Position numbers and translations under genes: made by a program
Shown here: positions 4,184-63,980 of the stretch, piece by piece
Layout: each line of letters begins with the position of its first letter
Position numbering within the stretch: position 1 is the stretch's first letter
DNA from: Gammaproteobacteria bacterium
GTDB taxonomy: Bacteria > Pseudomonadota > Gammaproteobacteria > JAABTG01
Length of the DNA stretch: 64,000 nt
Direction: 5' to 3'
Assembly (NCBI GenBank): GCA_034522055.1
Contig: JAXHLS010000002.1
Location: 930,001 to 994,000, forward strand
Notes under the pieces: generated by a model
Database searches by the model: none
What the model was told of the DNA's origin: nothing
The model's input: only the letters and a program-made list of their open reading frames with translations

Positions 4184-4311
4184 GGTGAATGGAGAATGGA
4201 TGAAGGTGAATAGTGAATGGTGAATAGTGAATGGTAAAAGCAACCACTGAGCGAGTGTCTACTATTCACCATTCACTATTCACTATTCACTGCCTTATCA
4301 CTATTCACTAG
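4184..4311. repeat. Paired inverted arrays of a GTGAATA/G heptad (locus 1)
   Basis: Copies of GTGAATA and GTGAATG run in tandem at about 4184-4234. The same array occurs in reverse complement at about 4261-4311, separated by a 26-base core. The transcript could fold into a long imperfect hairpin between hom and thrC. The hom stop codon sits inside the right array. The same architecture recurs near 10.0, 28.3-28.6 and 38.9-40.9 kb. Confidence 0.85.
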
Positions 4312-10000: not shown

Positions 10001-10158
10001 AGTGAATAGTGAATGGTGAATAGTGAATAGAAAAAGCGGGGCCGTGGTGGATCCTTGAGACAATCGGCATGCAAAAGGTTAACACTCGAGCGCGAAAAGG
10101 TTGGCAGGGTGTCTGCCCAACCATTCACCATTCACTGTTAACTGTTCACTATTCACTC
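10001..10158. repeat. Paired inverted GTGAATA/G arrays (locus 2)
   Basis: Tandem GTGAATA/GTGAATG copies at 10001-10030 are mirrored by reverse-complement copies at about 10121-10158, around a core of about 90 bases. The right array contains the stop codon and last codons (VSE) of the MFS gene. The structure separates that gene from leuC on the same strand. Confidence 0.85.
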
Positions 10159-12420: not shown

Positions 12421-12507
12421 CGGGCTATTGTAGCGGCCCCGGCGCCCGGAAGGCAGCATTGGAATTGCAAGGGTTCCGGGCTGGAGGCGTCCGTTCCTGT
12501 GGCACGG

Positions 12508-12767
12508 CTGTAGGTCGGGATTCATCCCGACATGAAAGCCCGCCGCGCGCACCACGGGCCGGGACGGAATCCGCACCGTCGGCTGTCGGGCTGAAGCCCG
12601 ACCTACAGCCCGACCTACAAACACCCCCCACCGCTCGTTCCCGGGGCACGACTGTAGGTCGGGATTCATCCCGACATTAAACCCCGCCGCACGCACCTCG
12701 GCCGGGACGGAACCGCCCGCGGGCTGTCGGGCTGAAGCCCGACCTACAGCCCGACCTACAACCCGGC
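12508..12767. repeat. Two REPIN-like palindromic doublets
   Basis: The 431-base gap between aroC and the hydrolase holds two copies of a composite unit of about 95 bp. Each has GTCGGGATTCATCCCGAC, a GC-rich core of about 50 bases, then GTCGGGCTGAAGCCCGAC, with GTAGG/CCTAC at the outer ends. Such inverted pairs resemble REPIN elements spread by RAYT transposases; no RAYT gene is in the window. Other copies lie at 28.4, 44.2 and 55.3-55.8 kb. Confidence 0.85.
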
Positions 12768-12851
12768 CTGCAAGCGAGGCCCGTTCCCCGCACGGGCACC
12801 GGGGGGTTAGCATGTGGGGTCATCCCTTTCCCCCGCCGCAGGAGGACCACC

Positions 12852-28317: not shown

Positions 28318-28592
28318 GATAAAGGGAATAGGGAATAGGGAATAGCGAATGACGGAGCGTGGCTGGCGTGATCCATTTGTGGGTCGGGATTCATCCCGAC
28401 ATCCGACCCCGCTGCAGGCACCCTGCGCCGGCTGGCAATTCCTTATGTTGGAGTGTCGGACTGAAGTCCGACCTACAGTCCGCCCTACAATCCGACCTAC
28501 AGTTTCCAGAGCCCGGGGGCATAACAGGGGGGTGGCCGCCGGCACGGCATCGCCTTTACTATTCCCTATTCCCTATTCCCTATTCCCCAATA
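28318..28592. repeat. Inverted GGGAATA arrays flanking a REP doublet (locus 3)
   Basis: The gap between purT and the CDF gene (divergent) has GGGAATA tandem copies at 28322-28346 and their reverse complement at about 28557-28590. The core of about 200 bases holds a REP unit (GTCGGGATTCATCCCGAC at 28384) and degenerate partners (TCGGACTGAAGTCCGACC near 28459). No gene is seen. Promoters for both flanking genes must lie at its edges. Confidence 0.8.
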
Positions 28593-53887: not shown

Positions 53888-53985
53888 AATTTGGGGTCAG
53901 AGTAAAAACTTCGAAACTTCGTTCGAAGTTTTTACTCTGACCCCAAATAGGCTAGAAGTTTTTACTCTGACCCCAAATAGGCTAG
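53888..53985. repeat. Triplicate palindromic repeat with GGGGTCAGAGTAAAAAC core
   Basis: TTTGGGGTCAGAGTAAAAAC (53890) is followed by its inverse (TTTTTACTCTGACCCCAAAT, ending 53948) and then a direct 31-bp copy of that inverse (to about 53985). The two inverse copies end in AGGCTAG, the last of which provides the TAG stop of the kinase gene. Such units are typical of REP/RAYT-type dispersed elements. Confidence 0.8.
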
Positions 53986-55274: not shown

Positions 55275-55835
55275 TGTCGGGATGAATCCCGACCTACAAA
55301 AAGCGTAACCGCGAAAGACGCGAACTGACGCGAAAAAGGAGAAGGTCAGGGAGGAGTGGCCGTTTGAAAAGGCGCAACGAATCCACCATTTCGGCGCCAG
55401 CAGAGCGGACGCACGGGGTAATCTTTTCCCATTTCCCATTTCCCATTTTCTCTAGGGAGAAGGACAGAGGGGTAGGTCGGGCTTCAGCCCGACAGCCGGC
55501 GGTGGGTTCCGACCCGGCCCGTGGTACGTGCGGCGGGGTTTGGATGTCGGGATGAATCCCGACCTACATTCGTGCCACGGGAACGGGCGGTGGCGGTGTA
55601 TCTGGCCGGGATGTCGGGATGAATCCCGATCTACATTCGTGCCGAAGCGGCGTATTTGGCCGGGATGTCGGGATGAATCCCGACCTACATTCCTGCCACG
55701 GGAACGGGCGGTGGCGGTGTATCTGGCCGGCATGTCGGGATGAATCCCGACCTACATCCGTGCCCCGGGAACGGGCGGTGGTGGCGTATCTGGCCGGGAT
55801 GTCGGGATGAATCCCGACCTACATTCGTGCCACGG
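55275..55835. repeat. REP-rich gap with a tandem array of about 67-bp units
   Basis: The 740-base gap between the kinase and phoU has one REP unit at 55275 and an A-type motif (CGCGAAAGACGCGAACTGAC) near 55312. A REPIN-like doublet lies at 55474-55575. Overlapping its end is a tandem array of five copies beginning TGTCGGGATGAATCCCGA (about 55545, 55612, 55665, 55733, 55800). Each copy is followed by CCTACATTCGTGCCACGGG-like spacer; the second is shorter. Open frames across it are translated repeat only. Confidence 0.88.
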
Positions 55836-55903
55836 GCCCCGGCATCGGGGCCCGGAACTGCGGGCGCGAGACCCGCTTTTTAAGGGGGCGAGGATGAAGA
55901 AGA

Positions 55904-56635
55904 CTAATCCAACTCCTTCAGGACCTCGTCGAGAATGGTGCTCAGCTCTACATGGCGCACGTCGCGACCGGTGGAGAGGTAGATCACATAGCCGGAGATA
56001 TTCTTGGCGTGGCCGCCGATGCGCTCCAGGGCCCGCAGGGCCAGCACGGCATCGATAGAATAGCCCACGGTGCGGGAGTCCTCGAGGACATAGGTGGCCA
56101 GGCGCCGCAGGGCGGCGCGGAACTTCTCCTCGATGCGCTCGTCCTGGTGGATCACCTCAACCGCCTTCTTCACATCCATGGTGTTGAAGGCGACCAATAC
56201 GTTGTCGAGCATGGATTTGCCGTAGACGGCGATGCCCCGCACGTCGTGTACCAGCCCCGAGTTGGGGGGGCTGGCGGCGGGGCTGCCATAGATCTCCTCC
56301 ACCAGGGAAGCCAGTTTACGGGCCTCGTCGCCGATGCGCTCGAGGTCCGACACCGTCTTGTTCATGGTCATGAGGTTGCGCAGATCCCGCGCCACCGGCT
56401 GCCGGCGGGCGATGGTGGTCACCAGTTCCTCGTCGATGCGCACGTCCATGTCATTGACCAGGCGATCGCGGGCGATGACCTCCCGTGCCGCCCCGGGGTC
56501 TTCGTCGTCCAGCGCACGAATGGCCCGAGCCAGCTGATCCTCTACGATACCGCCCATCTCCATCACCATCGAATGGAGGTTCATGAGGTCCTGGTCGAAG
56601 CCCTTGATGGTATGTCCGCCCGCTATATCGTTCAT
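55904..56635 (-). CDS. phoU: Phosphate transport system accessory protein PhoU
   Basis: 243 residues forming two three-helix PhoU repeats with the metal-cluster motifs E-x3-D (DLERIGDEARKLA and ALERIGGHAKNISG). PhoU connects PstSCAB with the PhoR kinase to repress the Pho regulon when phosphate is plentiful. The ATG at 56635 (MNDIAGGHTIKGFDQDL) is chosen over an upstream in-frame ATG. It closes the pst operon, separated from pstB by the repeat lipoprotein. Confidence 0.95.
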   Translation of the reverse strand: MNDIAGGHTIKGFDQDLMNLHSMVMEMGGIVEDQLARAIRALDDEDPGAAREVIARDRLVNDMDVRIDEELVTTIARRQPVARDLRNLMTMNKTVSDLERIGDEARKLASLVEEIYGSPAASPPNSGLVHDVRGIAVYGKSMLDNVLVAFNTMDVKKAVEVIHQDERIEEKFRAALRRLATYVLEDSRTVGYSIDAVLALRALERIGGHAKNISGYVIYLSTGRDVRHVELSTILDEVLKELD

Positions 56636-56735
56636 GCTGTGTAATCTCCGTTGCAAACGCCTGGAATCATGATGCCGGGGCCGGGAAGCGAGGCCGAAAC
56701 GCGGCGGGCGGTCTCGCCCCGTTCCCGGCAGGCCC

Positions 56736-57440
56736 TCAACCCTTGGCCGCCAGGTAGCCGTCGATGACCTCGGCCTCGGTGGAGCGGATGGTCATGCCGT
56801 TGGGTCCGGCGCCGATGCGGGTGACGATCTTGGACGGCTCGCCCGTGGTCTTGAAGTCCTTATAGGCCTTGGAATTGGCTTCGAACACCCACAGACGGCC
56901 GTCGTGGACCTCGGCCACATAGCCCGGCTTGCTGAGGAGATAGCCGTCGATGATGGCGCCCTCCGTGGAACGGACGGTCATGCCGTTGGGGCCGGCGGCG
57001 ATGCGGGTGACGATCTTGGACGGCTCGCCCGTGGTCTTGAAGTCCTTATAGGCCTTGGAATCGGCTTCGAACACCCACAAACGGCCGTCGTGGACCTCGG
57101 CCACATAGCCCGGCTTGCTGAGGAGATAGCCGTCGATGACGGCGCCATCCGTGGAGCGGACGGTCATGCCGTTGGGGCCGGCGGCGATGCGGGTGACGAT
57201 CTTGGACGGCTCGCCCGTGGTCTTGAAGTCCTTATAGGCCTTGGAATCGGCTTCGAACACCCACAGACGGCCGTCGTGGACCTCGGTGACGTAGCCGGGC
57301 TTGTCGAAAGAGACGCTCGCCTGGGTGTGGGCGGCATCCGTACGGGTAGCCTTGGGCGCTTCCTTGGGGGCCGAATTGGCATTGCAGCCGGTGATAGCGG
57401 CGGCAATGAGCAACGTGAGGGCCGTGCGTGTGAAGGTCAT
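56736..57440 (-). CDS. Lipoprotein of three near-identical 62-residue repeats inside the pst operon
   Basis: 234 residues. The signal ends in AAITGC (lipobox), followed by a short linker, then three repeats at about 47-108, 109-170 and 171-232. Each begins KPGYVAEVHDGRLWVFEA and contains KAYKDFKTTGEPSKIVTR and AGPNGMT. Differences are few (V/A, D/N, T/E), and the DNA is nearly identical, so the duplications are recent or kept alike by recombination. I do not recognise the domain by name. It lies 76 bases after pstB and 100 before phoU on the same strand, so it should be phosphate-regulated. Confidence 0.8.
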   Translation of the reverse strand: MTFTRTALTLLIAAAITGCNANSAPKEAPKATRTDAAHTQASVSFDKPGYVTEVHDGRLWVFEADSKAYKDFKTTGEPSKIVTRIAAGPNGMTVRSTDGAVIDGYLLSKPGYVAEVHDGRLWVFEADSKAYKDFKTTGEPSKIVTRIAAGPNGMTVRSTEGAIIDGYLLSKPGYVAEVHDGRLWVFEANSKAYKDFKTTGEPSKIVTRIGAGPNGMTIRSTEAEVIDGYLAAKG

Positions 57441-57516
57441 TTCGGTGTCTCCTGGTAGGTTGATATCAGCACTCGTTTGAAGGCCCCCGACCGGGAGGGC
57501 CGGACTACCGCCCCCG

Positions 57517-58347
57517 TCAGCCGAAGCGACCGGTGACGTAGTCCTCGGTCTGCTTCTTCTGGGGGTTGGTAAACAACACATCCGTTTCGCCGTACTCGAT
57601 GAGCTTGCCCAGATACATGAAGGCGGTGTTGTCCGAGACCCGAGCCGCCTGCTGCATGTTGTGGGTGACGATGACGATGGAATACTGGCCCTTGAGTTCG
57701 TCGATGAGTTCCTCGATCTTGGCCGTGGCGATGGGGTCGAGGGCCGATGCCGGCTCGTCCATGAGCAACACCTCGGGGTCGGAGGCGATGGCGCGGGCGA
57801 TGCACAGGCGCTGCTGCTGGCCGCCGGACATGGACAGGGCGCTCTCCTGCAGTCGGTCCTTGGCCTCGTCCCACAGGGCGGCACTGCGCAGGGCGCGTTC
57901 GCAGGTCTCCTCCAGGACGGCCCGGTTGGTGATGCCGTCCACCCGCAGGGGGTAGACCACGTTATCGAAGATGGACATGGCGAAGGGATTCGGCTTCTGG
58001 AACACCATCCCCATGCGCTTGCGCAGGGAGATGACATCGACCCCCTTACTGTAGATATCCCGCTCATCCACCGCCATGCGACCGTCCACCCGCACCTCGT
58101 CGATGAGGTCGTTCATGCGGTTTATGCACCGCAGCAGGGTGGACTTGCCACAGCCGGAGGGTCCGATGAGGGCCGTCACCAGCCCCCGGGGGACTTCCAT
58201 GGAGATGTCGAACAAGGCCTGCACATCCCCATACCAGAGGTTGAAATCCCTGATATCGATGATCTCGCCCTGGTCGGATTTCTGGACGTGATAGGCCGTA
58301 TCATCGCTGGCGGTGGAAACCGCTGCTGCGGTTGCGTTCATGGTCAT
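57517..58347 (-). CDS. pstB: Phosphate ABC transporter ATP-binding protein
   Basis: 276 residues with Walker [15 protein letters not shown]-loop ([17 protein letters not shown]), signature [16 protein letters not shown], Walker [14 protein letters not shown] and H-loop VTHNM. It powers high-affinity phosphate import. It is 20 bases downstream of pstA. Confidence 0.97.
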
Positions 58348-58367
58348 GCTCCCGGTCTAGCCTGTAA

Positions 58368-60113
58368 TCAAAAGGTACCGCCGGCGTATTTCTTCTTCAG
58401 GCGGTTGCGTATATAGATGGCCGATGCGTTCATCAACACGATGAGGGCGAGCAACAGCATGGTGGTCACGTAGACCATGGGCTTGCCGGCCTCGGAATTG
58501 CGGGACTGAAAGCCCACATCGAAGATATGAAAGCCCAGGTGCATGAAGCTGCGCTCCAGGTGCACGAAGGGGAAGAAGCCATCGATGGGCAACTCCGGCG
58601 CCAGTTTCACCACGCCCACCAGCATCAACGGCGCCACCTCGCCGGCGCCCCGCGCCATGGCCAGGATGAGGCCGGTCATGATGCCGGGCATGGCGCGCGG
58701 CAGCACCACGAAGCGCAGGGTCTGCCAGGTGGACGCACCACAGGCCAGGGAGCCCTCGCGCATGGAGCGTGGCACGGCGGACAGGGCCTCCTCGCTGGCC
58801 ACGATGACCACCGGCACCGTCAGCAGGGCCAGGGTCAGGGAGGCCCACAGGATGCCGCCGGTACCGAAGGTGGGGCTGGGCAGGCGCTCGGGAAAGAACA
58901 GGGCATCGATGCCGCCGCCGAGGGTGTAGGCGAAGAAGCCGAGACCGAACACGCCATAGACGATGGAGGGCACGCCGGCGAGGTTGTTCACCGAGATGCG
59001 CACCATGGACACCAGCCGCCCCTGCTTGGCGTACTCGCGCAGATACAGCGCCGTGATCACCCCCAGGGGGGCGACGAAGATCACCATGATGAGGGTCATG
59101 GCCACGGTGCCGAAGATGGCGGGCAACACCCCGCCCTCGGTGTTGGCCTCGCGGGGCTCGGCGGTGAGGAACTCGCCCCAGCGGGAAAGATAGATACCGG
59201 CCTTGTCGAGGCCCGACAGGTCGTTGGCGGGATAGAAACGCACGATCTGCGACAGGGGCAGCTCCTTCTCGCGTCCTCCGATCTCTTCCAGGGTGATGCG
59301 GTAGCGCCGGTCCTCTTCCTTGATGGCGTCGGCCCGCGCGGCCAGTTCCTCGTATTCTTTTTCGAGTTCGGCGATACGCTGGGCCGTATCCCGTTCGGCC
59401 TGCCGGTACTCGGCGCTGCCTTCCTCATGGTCCAGGGCGACACGCTTGAGGTCGAGGCGGGCCTCTTCGATGTAATGGTTGATGGCGCCGATCTCTTCCC
59501 GCTCGATGTGGCGGATCTCATTAAAGCGTTCCCGCGCGGCCGTCTGCTGCTCCTGCAATGCCCCGTAGCCGTACCCGCCGATGTCATATTGCTTGCCGTC
59601 GATGGTGACCCCGGCGATGCGCCCCACGAAGACCCCCCACTCCTGGCGCTCGAACAGGTACATGTCCGACGGTGTCTCGACCTTCTCCACCGCGAAATCC
59701 GAGACCCAGCGGAAATCCTCGTTATAGATGTCGTAGTTGCCGGTGCGATAGAGCACCCGATGAGCGAAACCGCTGTTGGCCTCGATGGCCTCGCGGTCTC
59801 CTTCCGTGAGCTTCTCCAGCAATTCCGCGCCGGGCTGGAAGACATTGTCACGGGTAGGCTCGCCGGCCACCACGCCGCCATCATTCAGGGTTACCACGTG
59901 GATGGGTTTGGGCCAGAAGGTGGCGGCACCGTTCCAGAAGATCATCACCAGGAACCCCACCACCAGCAGGACCCCCAGGGCCAGGGCCCCGCCGAGCCCC
60001 CACAGGAAGGGCTCGCCGGTGGCGTTGAGGTCCGTGGTGTAGCGCCGGGAGGCCGCGCTCACGCTCTCATCCTGAGGCGCCATCCCGTTGACAGTACTCA
60101 CATTGGCAGACAT
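58368..60113 (-). CDS. pstA: Phosphate ABC transporter permease PstA, large form with periplasmic coiled coil
   Basis: 581 residues, about twice the E. coli PstA. One N-terminal TM (about 35-60) precedes a periplasmic region of about 280 residues. That region includes a long charged helix pair (about 180-270; EQQTAARERFNEIRHIEREEIG, AEYRQAERDTAQRIAELEKEYEELAARADAIKEE) predicted to be a coiled coil. The permease domain follows (AIFGTVAMTLIMVIFVAPLGVITALYLREY; EALSAVPRSMREGSLACGA is the EAA loop). Large forms of this kind occur in other gammaproteobacteria. Confidence 0.9.
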   Translation of the reverse strand: MSANVSTVNGMAPQDESVSAASRRYTTDLNATGEPFLWGLGGALALGVLLVVGFLVMIFWNGAATFWPKPIHVVTLNDGGVVAGEPTRDNVFQPGAELLEKLTEGDREAIEANSGFAHRVLYRTGNYDIYNEDFRWVSDFAVEKVETPSDMYLFERQEWGVFVGRIAGVTIDGKQYDIGGYGYGALQEQQTAARERFNEIRHIEREEIGAINHYIEEARLDLKRVALDHEEGSAEYRQAERDTAQRIAELEKEYEELAARADAIKEEDRRYRITLEEIGGREKELPLSQIVRFYPANDLSGLDKAGIYLSRWGEFLTAEPREANTEGGVLPAIFGTVAMTLIMVIFVAPLGVITALYLREYAKQGRLVSMVRISVNNLAGVPSIVYGVFGLGFFAYTLGGGIDALFFPERLPSPTFGTGGILWASLTLALLTVPVVIVASEEALSAVPRSMREGSLACGASTWQTLRFVVLPRAMPGIMTGLILAMARGAGEVAPLMLVGVVKLAPELPIDGFFPFVHLERSFMHLGFHIFDVGFQSRNSEAGKPMVYVTTMLLLALIVLMNASAIYIRNRLKKKYAGGTF

Positions 60114-60124
60114 GGGCTAACCCC

Positions 60125-62755
60125 TTAGAGCTGGAAGGCACGCTTGCGGAAACGCTGGCGAATGGTTTCCGCGACGGTGTTGATGGTGAAGGTAAGGACG
60201 AACAGGGTCAGGCCGGCCAGGAACAGCATGCGATAATGCGTGCCATCCTGGGGCGCCTCGGGCAGCTCCACGGCGATGTTCGCCGACAGGGTGCGCAGGC
60301 CGTTGAAGATGTTCCAGTCCAGCACCGGGGTGTTGCCCGCGGCCATGAGCACGATCATGGTCTCGCCGACCGCGCGGCCCATGCCGATCATGCAGGCGGC
60401 AAAGACCCCCGACAGGGCCGTGGGCAGGATCACCCATATGGCAGTCTGCCAGGGCGTGGCCCCCGCCGCCAGGCTGGCGGACCGCACGTGATTGGGCACC
60501 GCGCTCAAGGCATCCTCGGAAAGGCTGTAGATGGTGGGGATGATAGCGAAACCCATGACGAAGCCCACCACCAGGGCGTTGCGCTGTACGTAGGTATCCA
60601 CCACGCCGCCGCGGGGGTCGAAACCTGCCGCGGTCAAGATGCTGGCGGTCGCCAGGCTCAATACCACCGCCCCGATGAGCAGCCCCACCCAGCGCAGGAA
60701 CTCCAGGCCACCGGCGTGGCTCTTGGTGAGCCCGCGCTGATAGTTCCGCAGCCGATCACCGAAGACGCGTTGGACCAGCCATCTGGCGGCGAAGAAACCC
60801 ACCGGCAGGAGCACCAGGAACATGAAGGGTGTGCCGGTGCCGATATCGCCGTTGGTCCAGGCCATGAAGTCGTCATAGAAAAACACGCGCTCGAAGGCGG
60901 GGCCAAACCCGTAGGCCACGTAGAGGGACAGGGCGATGACCACGAACATGAGAAAGAACTTGGGCAGCCCGTCCAGCTTCAGGACCACGTCCAGGGGCAG
61001 CAGTTGCCACAGGAAGGCGGCCAGCATCAAGCCCATGGGCAGAGCGACGAAGGCCAACAGCACCGCCGCGATCCAGGTCTCGACGATGGGCGCCAGCACC
61101 AGGGCGGCGATGAAGCCCACCACCACCGTGGGCATGGACTCCATGGTCTCCATCATGGGCTTGACGGTGGCGCGCACCCGGTGGTGCACGAACTCCGAGG
61201 TATAGATGGCACCGAGCAGGCCGATGGGAATGGCGAACACCAGCGAGTAGATGGTGGCCTTGAGGGTGCCGAAGATCAGCGGCACCAGGGAATACTTGGG
61301 CTCGAAGACATCGGTGCCGGAGGACGACTGCCAGGTGTAGGTGGGCTCCTCGTAACCCTCGTACCAGACCTTGCCGAACACGGCGTCGAGGGTGGTTTCC
61401 GGATGGGGGTAATAGAAGGACCAGTAATCCGTCTCGCCGCTGTCGGCGACCCGCACCACGCCGTCCACCCGGGGCAGCAGCAGCAACTGGGCCGACCCCT
61501 CCTGCACGCCCCCGTGGTCGTATCGGAGCAGCACCTGGTCCGAGGTGGAGTGACGCACCCACACCTCGCCGTTGGCGGCCTCGGTGGTGAGGGTCTTGCT
61601 GCGCTGGCTGACACTGATGCCGGTGACGGCGGCGCCGTGGGGCTCGTGCACCCGGGACCGCACCAGCTTGTAGCCGTCCGGCGCCGCCCCCTGCTCCGGG
61701 CTGAGCTTGAAGTAGACATGCACGGCACCGTTGCTGCCACCCACCACCAGGGCCTGCTCGCCCACCAGGTAGTCCATGGTCGTCACGGTGGCCCCGCTGG
61801 GAAAGGCGTCCACGGTCTCCGATAGCACCGGGTTGCTGAAATCACGGGCATCGAAGCGATACAGCCGGCCACGATCTGAGGCCACCAGCACGGTATCGGC
61901 CAGGGTGTTGAGGGCCACCGCCGTGACCCGGGTGCCTTCCGGCAGAGGCGGGAGTTCCGTGGTGCGCACCTTGGTGGTGAGCTTGCGGGTCATGATGTTG
62001 AGCTTGGCCGTGGCGCGGCTGAGGCGGCCCACGCCTTCGGCATCGACGGTCACGAAGGAGCGGGTGGGTCGCTCGGCGGTGCCGCCTACCCGGTAGGCAA
62101 CGGCCACGATGGGGGCATCGACTACTTTCGTCGGCTCCTGGACCTCGGCGCGCAGGCGCACCCGCCGCAGCTGGTCGCCCGGCAGGCTGGAATAGACCGC
62201 GTCTCCCGCCAGACGGTCCCGCTGATCGAGCACCTCGGTCACCGCCGTCACGTCGGACGGCCGCAGGATGTCCACCTCGAAGGTCAGTTCCGCGAAACGG
62301 ATGGTGCCATCCGCGAAAGCGAAGGCCACCTGGTCACGCTCCACCACGCCGCCCACCGCGGTGGCGGACTGGCCACCGAAATCCAGTTGTCCGGCGGTGA
62401 CGAAACGCCCGCTGGCGAGGTGGAACACCCGGTAGGCCCCATCCGCGGCCACCCTCACCCCCAGGGTGCCGTACTCGTCGGCGTTGAGCCACAGCGTGCG
62501 CTTGGCCGGGAGTTCGTACTCGGCATGGGCCAGGGTATCGCCGCCGCCGCTTAGGGGCAGGGCCACCTTGACCAGGAAGACCATGATGCCGATGACGGCG
62601 AAGATCACCAGCAGGCCGCCGATGGTGATGCCCCAGCCGGCGGCGCGGTCCATCAGCAGCACGGATTTGCGGGTGCTCTTGTCCCGCCGGCGCTGAGTGA
62701 CCGCGCTGCGGCGGTCCGCCTTGTCCGAGTCGGATTGTCGAGTCGTGGTGCTCAT
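60125..62755 (-). CDS. pstC: Phosphate ABC transporter permease PstC, large form with beta-propeller-like periplasmic domain
   Basis: 876 residues. TM1 (about 40-62) is followed by a periplasmic region of about 400 residues with repeated beta-strand blades (VTAVALNTLADTVLVASDRGRLYRFD; YLVGEQALVVGGSNGAVHVYF; ITGISVSQRSKTLTTEAANGEVWVRH-like), suggestive of a WD40-like propeller. The permease core follows (LIFGTLKATIYSLVFAIPIG; EDALSAVPNHVRSASLAAGA EAA loop). It is 11 bases from pstA and 150 from pstS. Confidence 0.9.
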   Translation of the reverse strand: MSTTTRQSDSDKADRRSAVTQRRRDKSTRKSVLLMDRAAGWGITIGGLLVIFAVIGIMVFLVKVALPLSGGGDTLAHAEYELPAKRTLWLNADEYGTLGVRVAADGAYRVFHLASGRFVTAGQLDFGGQSATAVGGVVERDQVAFAFADGTIRFAELTFEVDILRPSDVTAVTEVLDQRDRLAGDAVYSSLPGDQLRRVRLRAEVQEPTKVVDAPIVAVAYRVGGTAERPTRSFVTVDAEGVGRLSRATAKLNIMTRKLTTKVRTTELPPLPEGTRVTAVALNTLADTVLVASDRGRLYRFDARDFSNPVLSETVDAFPSGATVTTMDYLVGEQALVVGGSNGAVHVYFKLSPEQGAAPDGYKLVRSRVHEPHGAAVTGISVSQRSKTLTTEAANGEVWVRHSTSDQVLLRYDHGGVQEGSAQLLLLPRVDGVVRVADSGETDYWSFYYPHPETTLDAVFGKVWYEGYEEPTYTWQSSSGTDVFEPKYSLVPLIFGTLKATIYSLVFAIPIGLLGAIYTSEFVHHRVRATVKPMMETMESMPTVVVGFIAALVLAPIVETWIAAVLLAFVALPMGLMLAAFLWQLLPLDVVLKLDGLPKFFLMFVVIALSLYVAYGFGPAFERVFFYDDFMAWTNGDIGTGTPFMFLVLLPVGFFAARWLVQRVFGDRLRNYQRGLTKSHAGGLEFLRWVGLLIGAVVLSLATASILTAAGFDPRGGVVDTYVQRNALVVGFVMGFAIIPTIYSLSEDALSAVPNHVRSASLAAGATPWQTAIWVILPTALSGVFAACMIGMGRAVGETMIVLMAAGNTPVLDWNIFNGLRTLSANIAVELPEAPQDGTHYRMLFLAGLTLFVLTFTINTVAETIRQRFRKRAFQL

Positions 62756-62905: not shown

Positions 62906-63871
62906 CTACTTCAGGCCCAGGGCCTCGAGGTCGTCATCGGCGATGGCCTTGGTGATCGGGTAGTAACCGTCCTTGATCACGTCCAGCTGCCCATCCCGTG
63001 AGAGCATGTAGCGGATGAACTCGCCGCGCAGCGGGTCCAGGCTCTCGTTGGGATTCTTGTTGACGTAGACATAGAGGAAGCGCGAGATGGGATAGTCACC
63101 CGCGTAGGCGTTCTCGGCATTGGCATCGAAGCACTCGCCGCCGGCGCTGCTCTTGAGCGGCACTGAGCGCACATCCGCGGTCTTGTAGCCCACGCCGGAA
63201 TAGCCGACGCCTGCCTTGTCGGAGGCCACGCCCTGCACCACCGTGGACGAACCCGGCTGCTCCTTCACCTCATCCTTGTAGTCGCCGTTGAACAGGGCGA
63301 CCTTCTTGTAGTAGCCATAGGTGCCGGAAGCGGAGTTACGGCCATATAGGGAGATGGGCATACTGGCCCACTCGCCCTTCAGCCCGACGTCGCCCCAGGT
63401 GGTGATGTCCTTGGGGTAGCCGCCATTGCGGGTCTTGGAGAAGATCGCGTCCACCTGCTTCATGGACAGGCACTCGAGGGGGTTGTCCTTGTGCACGTAG
63501 ACGGCGAGTGCGTCCACCGCGCCGCGGATGGAGCTAGGCTTGTAGCCGTACTTGGACTCGAACGTCTCCTCTTCCTTGGATTTCATGGGGCGGGACATGG
63601 GCCCGAACTGGGCGGTGCCGGCGATGAGGGCGGGCGGCGCGGTGGATGAACCCTTGCCCTCGATCTCGATCTTGACGTTGGGATACTGGCCCAGGAAGCC
63701 CTCCGCCCACAGGGTCATGAGATTATTCAGGGTGTCGGAGCCGATGGACTTGAGGGAGCCGGAGACACCGCTGACCGGCTTGTAATCCGTCAGCGCGGGA
63801 TCCACTTCCACCGCGGTCGCCGGCATGGCCAGCGCGAGGCCCACGGACATGGCTAGGAGTTGCTTTTTCAT
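62906..63871 (-). CDS. pstS: Phosphate-binding periplasmic protein PstS
   Basis: 321 residues with a signal peptide (MKKQLLAMSVGLALAMPATA). The phosphate-binding features are present: GSDTLNNLM near the N-terminus, FGPMSRPM, and ISLYGRNSASGTYGYYKK. AAAGGACG precedes the ATG at 63871; an in-frame ATG six codons earlier is less likely. It is the first gene of pstS-C-A-B-lipoprotein-phoU. Confidence 0.95.
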   Translation of the reverse strand: MKKQLLAMSVGLALAMPATAVEVDPALTDYKPVSGVSGSLKSIGSDTLNNLMTLWAEGFLGQYPNVKIEIEGKGSSTAPPALIAGTAQFGPMSRPMKSKEEETFESKYGYKPSSIRGAVDALAVYVHKDNPLECLSMKQVDAIFSKTRNGGYPKDITTWGDVGLKGEWASMPISLYGRNSASGTYGYYKKVALFNGDYKDEVKEQPGSSTVVQGVASDKAGVGYSGVGYKTADVRSVPLKSSAGGECFDANAENAYAGDYPISRFLYVYVNKNPNESLDPLRGEFIRYMLSRDGQLDVIKDGYYPITKAIADDDLEALGLK

Positions 63872-63980
63872 TACGTCTCGTCCTTTCAAGGTTAGTGAAT
63901 GAGTTTCAAAGAGATTTCACTTTTCGCGACGCCGCAGGATGAATCGCCGTTGCGACTGGACGAGACTTTAAAGCCATTGT

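Follow-up and report, generated by a model that had tools for sequence, protein, structure and literature searches.

Why should a phosphate-uptake operon carry a gene for a repetitive lipoprotein between pstB and phoU, and what might its product do there? The question arises from the window (the whole 64,000-nucleotide stretch of DNA that was analysed), where such a gene is part of a complete pst operon with all its genes on one strand, pstS-pstC-pstA-pstB-[gene]-phoU. The features concerned are listed with family model, score and cutoff, or other basis, in brackets.

62906–63889, minus strand: pstS (TIGR02136, 241.8 bits, cutoff 206.6)
60125–62755, minus strand: pstC, long form, 876 aa (TIGR02138, 197.8 bits, cutoff 196.45)
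58368–60113, minus strand: pstA, long form, 581 aa (TIGR00974, 236 bits, cutoff 193.45)
57517–58347, minus strand: pstB, the upstream neighbour (TIGR00972, 396.9 bits, cutoff 343.2)
56736–57440, minus strand: three-module lipoprotein gene, 234 aa (ORF and translation; AlphaFold2 whole protein, pLDDT 87.3)
57387–57440, minus strand: signal peptide, residues 1–18, lipobox ITGC, then Cys19, with Asn at residue +2 (sequence)
57117–57302, minus strand: module 1, residues 47–108 (repeats; AlphaFold2 of module 1, pLDDT 95.9)
56931–57116, minus strand: module 2, residues 109–170, a hybrid whose first ~16 nt are module 3-like and the rest module 1-like (diagnostic sites)
56745–56930, minus strand: module 3, residues 171–232 (repeats)
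55904–56656, minus strand: phoU, the downstream neighbour (TIGR02135, 197.6 bits, cutoff 130.25)

Translation from the ATG at 57440 gives a 234-aa product that begins with the signature of a lipoprotein, a signal peptide and a lipobox ending in Cys (...AAAITGC, Cys19; MTFTRTALTLLIAAAITGC). A mechanical ORF finder returned a 443-aa version of the same frame with its start inside pstB; we take the start at 57440 as the sensible one because the signal peptide is found there and because it lies 76 nt past the pstB stop. General lipoprotein rules predict that the protein is lipidated and sorted to the outer membrane. Signal peptide and lipobox are followed by a low-confidence linker and then by three modules in tandem, each exactly 62 residues long, encoded by three head-to-tail repeats of 186 nt (56745–57302). 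Tandem Repeats Finder assigns the array a period of 186, 3.0 copies and 94% matches, with the top score of the window (986), and the modules share 95.7, 90.3 and 89.2% DNA identity in pairwise comparison, far above chance. Reading frame, repeats (89–96% identical as DNA) and neighbours all confirm the original prediction of a lipoprotein of three near-identical 62-residue modules between pstB and phoU. The protein matches none of the PstS, PstC, PstA, PstB or PhoU families and is not a core Pst component. No convincing second gene of its kind was found in the host's own genome; candidate further module copies there were weak matches containing stops and were discarded as chance.

Relatives were collected by a context-blind scan, a single pass of the module alignment against a genome collection of 84,980 species, which returned 38 loci encoding proteins with one to seven modules. 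Searches of genomes from the same class yielded a two-module lipoprotein (type B, about 195 aa), as well as closer types with one and four modules. Within the Gammaproteobacteria, relatives occur in Shewanella, Marinomonas, Solimonas, Ectothiorhodospira, Thioalkalivibrio and Moraxellaceae; others come from Rhodocyclaceae and from genomes labelled Planctomycetota, Geobacteraceae and others. Some of these metagenome labels are unreliable, since the near-identical proteins of L092 and L093 are filed under different names. The family is sparse: 15 of 369 genomes in a sample of the class have it, as do 8 of 398 in a sample of the phylum, and no relatives were found in the viral contigs and plasmids searched. 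Most relatives have lipoboxes similar to that of the window protein; the Shewanella, Solimonas and Moraxellaceae copies have an ordinary signal peptide. The long Ectothiorhodospira modules and those of Planctomycetota type lack about 10 residues around the first helix. One candidate relative without a signal peptide (G781/L139) was rejected as a probable false match. In a Rhodopirellula-labelled locus (L098:9383–9826), four modules are preceded by an extra N-terminal part of ~145 residues with a weak resemblance to cytochrome P460 (E 0.13, below cutoff).

The repeats also record something of their own history. Modules 1 and 3 differ at 20 sites; module 2 agrees with module 3 at the first four of these (nt 6–16) and with module 1 at 15 of the 16 others. 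The nearest relative, L081, has two modules, the first agreeing with module 1 and the second with module 3 at many diagnostic sites. The most economical account of these patterns is that the ancestor had two modules and that a single unequal crossing-over gave rise to the hybrid now found between them. Module copy number thereby appears to change through unequal crossing-over, and sequence comparison supports such change between species. The earlier expectation that copy number would vary by recombination is supported by both the hybrid middle module and the range of one to seven modules across relatives.

Other repeats are present in the window. Next to phoU, at 55542–55836, a ~67-nt unit containing the palindrome-like GTCGGGATGAATCCCGAC is repeated in tandem, in what looks like a REP/BIME-type element; related arrays, of GTAGGTCGGGATTCATCCCGAC, occupy 12502–12769. 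Two perfect 30-nt copies of GAAGTTTTTACTCTGACCCCAAATAGGCTA are found at 53925–53985, and short arrays of 7-nt units (ACTATTC, AGTGAAT, CTATTCC) at 4261–4291, 10001–10030 and 28559–28587.

If position is a guide to function, the neighbours of the relatives should be informative. We compared loci using the window PstB, PstA, PstC and PhoU as queries, together with family-model-checked ArsJ, ArsJ-associated GAPDH, Acr3, ArsR, CpdB, PhoX, PhoA-type phosphatase and PhoB-like regulator. Phosphate genes (pst, phoU, phoB, phoX, phoA, cpdB) lie within 10 kb of the module gene at 22 of the 38 context-blind loci, and at six of those 22 the module gene stands exactly between pstB and phoU (L082, L111, L112, L115, L116, L118; about five independent groups). 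In Ectothiorhodospiraceae it adjoins an alkaline phosphatase gene, with pst 4–8 kb away in several cases (L113, L142–L144, L146–L148), and two type B genes (L045, L136) lie just upstream of pstC. The 38 are a count of loci, and related genomes among them are not independent; over a dozen genus-level groups show the link. As a rough expectation rather than a formal background rate, far fewer than 1% of genes picked at random would have a pst operon within 10 kb when the genome is several megabases long.

Arsenate-resistance genes form a second link, one absent from the earlier reading: arsR, acr3 or arsJ are found beside the module gene at seven further loci of the 38. The module gene directly follows arsJ in Shewanella, diverges from arsR in Marinomonas (arsR-acr3-GAPDH-arsJ), stands beside acr3 in Thauera, and is flanked in Solimonas by phoX on one side and an ars cluster on the other. 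A type B gene (L043) lies near arsJ. The single-module homologues whose search was proposed with the original prediction do exist, and two further ones (L135 and L138, from the phylum sample) also lie within ars clusters. At 9 of the 38 loci the fetched flank holds no phosphate or arsenic marker. Separately, in the Thioalkalivibrio-like L040 and L042, what is found near the one-module gene is not phosphate genes but those for a nitrate-type ABC transporter binding protein and for a NIT-domain-like regulator.

The host operon itself adds detail. In four genomes from the same family as the host (G001–G004), phoU immediately follows pstB and the module gene is absent. The window PstC, PstA and PstB are 82–86% identical to those of L081, whose phoU is located elsewhere and encodes a protein only 48% identical to the window PhoU; the latter is 74% identical to a PhoU from a different pst operon of G001. 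The operon (55904–62755, minus strand) appears mosaic. The N-termini of PstC and PstA (58368–62755, minus strand) contain large extra parts, as they do in L081, L082, L112 and L115; the nearest genomes, G001–G004, also have Pst permeases that are shorter than, or more distant from, these long forms.

A gene that belongs to the PhoB regulon should have its own Pho box where it stands alone and none where it lies inside a pst operon. PhoB boxes were scored as a direct repeat of CTGTCAT with an 11-nt period in the 160 nt before the start codon. A score of 11 was reached by 13 of 24 stand-alone groups, against 30 of 488 regions upstream of other ORFs at the same loci (Mann-Whitney p = 1.2e-9; control ORFs were mechanical and start codons set by a simple signal-peptide rule), and copies inside operons scored no differently from these controls. 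Two further comparisons are independent of the control ORFs: dinucleotide-preserving shuffles gave a combined Z of 9.4 (25 genes, a few of which share a genus), and the heptamer CTGTCAT scored 268, with 244 for the best of 249 permuted decoys. The repeats lie about 60–105 bases upstream of genes with their own promoter, for instance ATGTCATCTTTCTGTCAT at -77 in Marinomonas L102 and CTGTCATCAAGCTGTTAT at -104 in type B L044. The window operon has a weak match, 10 of 14, 109 nt before pstS (ATGCAATCAAATTGTCAC), and no Pho box was found upstream of the ars-linked Shewanella copy. Since genes with their own promoter tend to have a PhoB-box-like repeat, in contrast to pst-operon copies, we predict that the family is part of the phosphate-starvation (PhoB) regulon. 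In the Moraxellaceae-labelled L091, two mechanical ORFs between the module gene and pstC (L091:10279 and L091:11457) also have PhoB-box-like sites upstream, with scores of 13.0 and 12.0.

The link to phosphate that had been predicted from position is thus upheld by recurrent pst and phoU linkage in distant genomes and by PhoB-box-like sites upstream of relatives with their own promoters. The more specific role proposed from position, in phosphate sensing or capture at the membrane, keeps the standing of a hypothesis. One observation named in advance as damaging, homologues scattered without pst linkage, was borne out only partly: pst is not adjacent in numerous relatives, but the majority of those have arsenate-resistance or phosphatase genes beside them and/or a Pho-box-like site. 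That the family is related to phosphate in some way is, in our judgement, very likely. The opposing reading, that the phosphate and arsenic links are coincidence or shared hitch-hiking around an unrelated role, can point to the nine loci without a marker but is scarcely credible, given pst linkage far above the rough expectation in distant lineages and Pho-box-like sites where the module gene stands outside an operon.

What the module does is a harder question. As modelled by AlphaFold2 (92 modules), following a course proposed with the original prediction, it is a compact ββαββα domain (mean pLDDT 95.9), and the whole-protein model has three such units behind a low-confidence N-terminal stretch. 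Among the 92 modules (alignment A3 numbering), Arg15 and Gly45 are invariant, Pro46 is present in 91, Thr or Ser at position 50 in all 92, and Lys or Arg at position 52 in 85. Scans of Pfam, NCBIfam, PHROGs and PADLOC assigned the module to no family. Matches to ATP-grasp, DUF3221, DUF2196, NAD-binding, Tet(X) and restriction enzyme models were below cutoff and summed over repeats, and were rejected as motif chance; a Pfam cutoff was exceeded only by the seven-module L112 (DUF2917 and formyltransferase C-terminal), and this was rejected because no single stretch passes. Neither the protein nor the 92-module profile had a significant match when searched against PDB sequences, and fold searches of the PDB and viral models (Foldseek, VIA-align) gave no E below 0.1 and a best VIA-align Z of 2.6, which does not in itself prove a new fold. 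In the open-access literature, a body that lacks most subscription journals and whose silence is not proof that the family is undescribed, no publication on these lipoproteins came to light; the phrase 'between pstB and phoU' occurred there in a single paper, on Salmonella PhoU.

Our leading explanation, advanced tentatively, is a lipid-anchored periplasmic protein of the PhoB regulon, built of tandem ~62-residue ββαββα modules that would each bind a phosphate-type oxyanion. It leads because phosphate linkage, arsenate linkage and predicted Pho control are taken together. Arsenate is a structural analogue of phosphate, and arsenic and phosphate genes are known to associate, pst genes being frequent in arsenic islands (PMC3834237), so a single oxyanion-binding module would explain both neighbourhoods. 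Since pstB and phoU of the pst operon flank its gene, the lipoprotein is probably made together with the Pst transporter when phosphate is scarce; its expression at phosphate limitation, its lipidation and its location are all inferred. We guess from conservation and neighbours that each module binds phosphate, and probably also arsenate, in the periplasm, at a site that might draw on the invariant Arg15, on the basic residue conserved at position 52 and on Thr50 together with the loop Gly45-Pro46. Such a combination of an unvarying Arg, a basic residue and a Gly-rich, Thr-containing loop would be compatible with oxyanion binding. The string of modules might hold phosphate or hand it over near PstS and PstCA, or help the cell to prefer phosphate over arsenate. 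Several observations count against this explanation: the searches matched no known phosphate-binding domain or fold, the conserved Gly and Pro may be structural only, some modules lack the ~10 residues around the first helix, nine loci have no marker, the window operon offers only the weak match before pstS, and the ars-linked Shewanella copy has no Pho box.

The same position could instead reflect protein contact, with a Pho-regulon lipoprotein docking on the long periplasmic parts of PstC and PstA, or on PstS or PhoR, and tuning transport or signalling without binding phosphate. The pstB-[gene]-phoU order in several distant genomes, the joint movement of pstCAB and the module gene (but not phoU) between the window and L081, and the suitability of tandem modules for a scaffold make this a candidate, if a doubtful one; it does not account well for relatives in ars operons or beside phoX, phoA or cpdB, whose fetched flanks contain no pst genes. 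Rather unlikely is an envelope lipoprotein for remodelling the cell surface in phosphate starvation, for example to offset phospholipid loss, without direct contact with phosphate. The lipobox or signal peptide throughout, the variable module number and the Pho-box-like sites would suit such a role, which does not predict repeated placement in ars operons beside arsJ, acr3 and arsR.

Very improbable, but retained because the order of its elements would fit a permutation and because ArsJ exports 1-arseno-3-phosphoglycerate (PMC6947025), is a diverged, circularly permuted acylphosphatase-like domain acting on periplasmic phosphoryl or arsenoryl compounds such as that ArsJ substrate. In its favour, NCBIfam acylphosphatase models are reported for many multi-module members over the same region, GYVTEVHDGRLWVF is similar to GWVRNLPDGRVEVL of acylphosphatase, circular permutation of βαββαβ would yield ββαββα, and ArsJ is linked. 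Against it, the scores are sums over repeats and below every cutoff (NAD-binding models behave alike), profile-profile comparison by hhalign is not significant (P 0.043, probability 1.2%), and neither the window protein nor the listed relatives have the phosphate-binding loop GxVQGVxxR. With no PF00708 match in addition, membership of the acylphosphatase family was rejected. The acylphosphatase (ferredoxin-like) fold was not among the Foldseek and VIA-align matches, although a circular permutation would escape these searches.

Pst-PhoU-PhoR is a textbook system of nutrient uptake and sensing. A recurrent extra gene in its operon defines a concrete new family, some of whose members are predicted to be controlled in the same way and others of which lie in operons for arsenate resistance. 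The gene is probably an undescribed part of bacterial handling of scarce phosphate. Should the module prove to bind phosphate or arsenate, cells would have in it a small oxyanion binder that can be repeated, and possibly part of the means by which they tell the two apart. More speculative, and in our view improbable in this full form, is that strings of one to seven modules constitute a widespread undescribed periplasmic phosphate/arsenate-binding device, which both high-affinity phosphate uptake and arsenate resistance would use as a hitherto missing accessory in several groups of bacteria, its capacity being tuned as unequal crossing-over adds or removes copies.

Comparison with known systems places the module protein as follows. 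With acylphosphatase (PF00708) it shares a faint profile similarity over about 45 residues and an element order that would fit circular permutation, but it differs in the non-significant profile-profile match, the missing phosphate-binding loop and its predicted secretion. Like PstS and other periplasmic oxyanion-binding proteins, it is phosphate-linked, predicted to be periplasmic and a proposed phosphate binder, whereas PstS-type proteins have ~300 residues, against 62 per module, and do not match it in sequence or fold. Ars operons with ArsJ and GAPDH accommodate relatives next to arsJ (Shewanella) or arsR-acr3-GAPDH-arsJ (Marinomonas), although the module protein is not a described ars component and a paper on an arsJ determinant mentions no lipoprotein (PMC6947025). 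Classical pst operons run from pstB to phoU without an intervening gene, whereas the window operon has the lipoprotein gene at that point. With the pstSCAB-phoU/PhoB regulon, finally, the correspondence is one of placement and predicted control: the module gene lies inside a complete pst operon, and its relatives lie near pst, phoU, phoB, phoA, phoX or cpdB or have PhoB-box-like sites.
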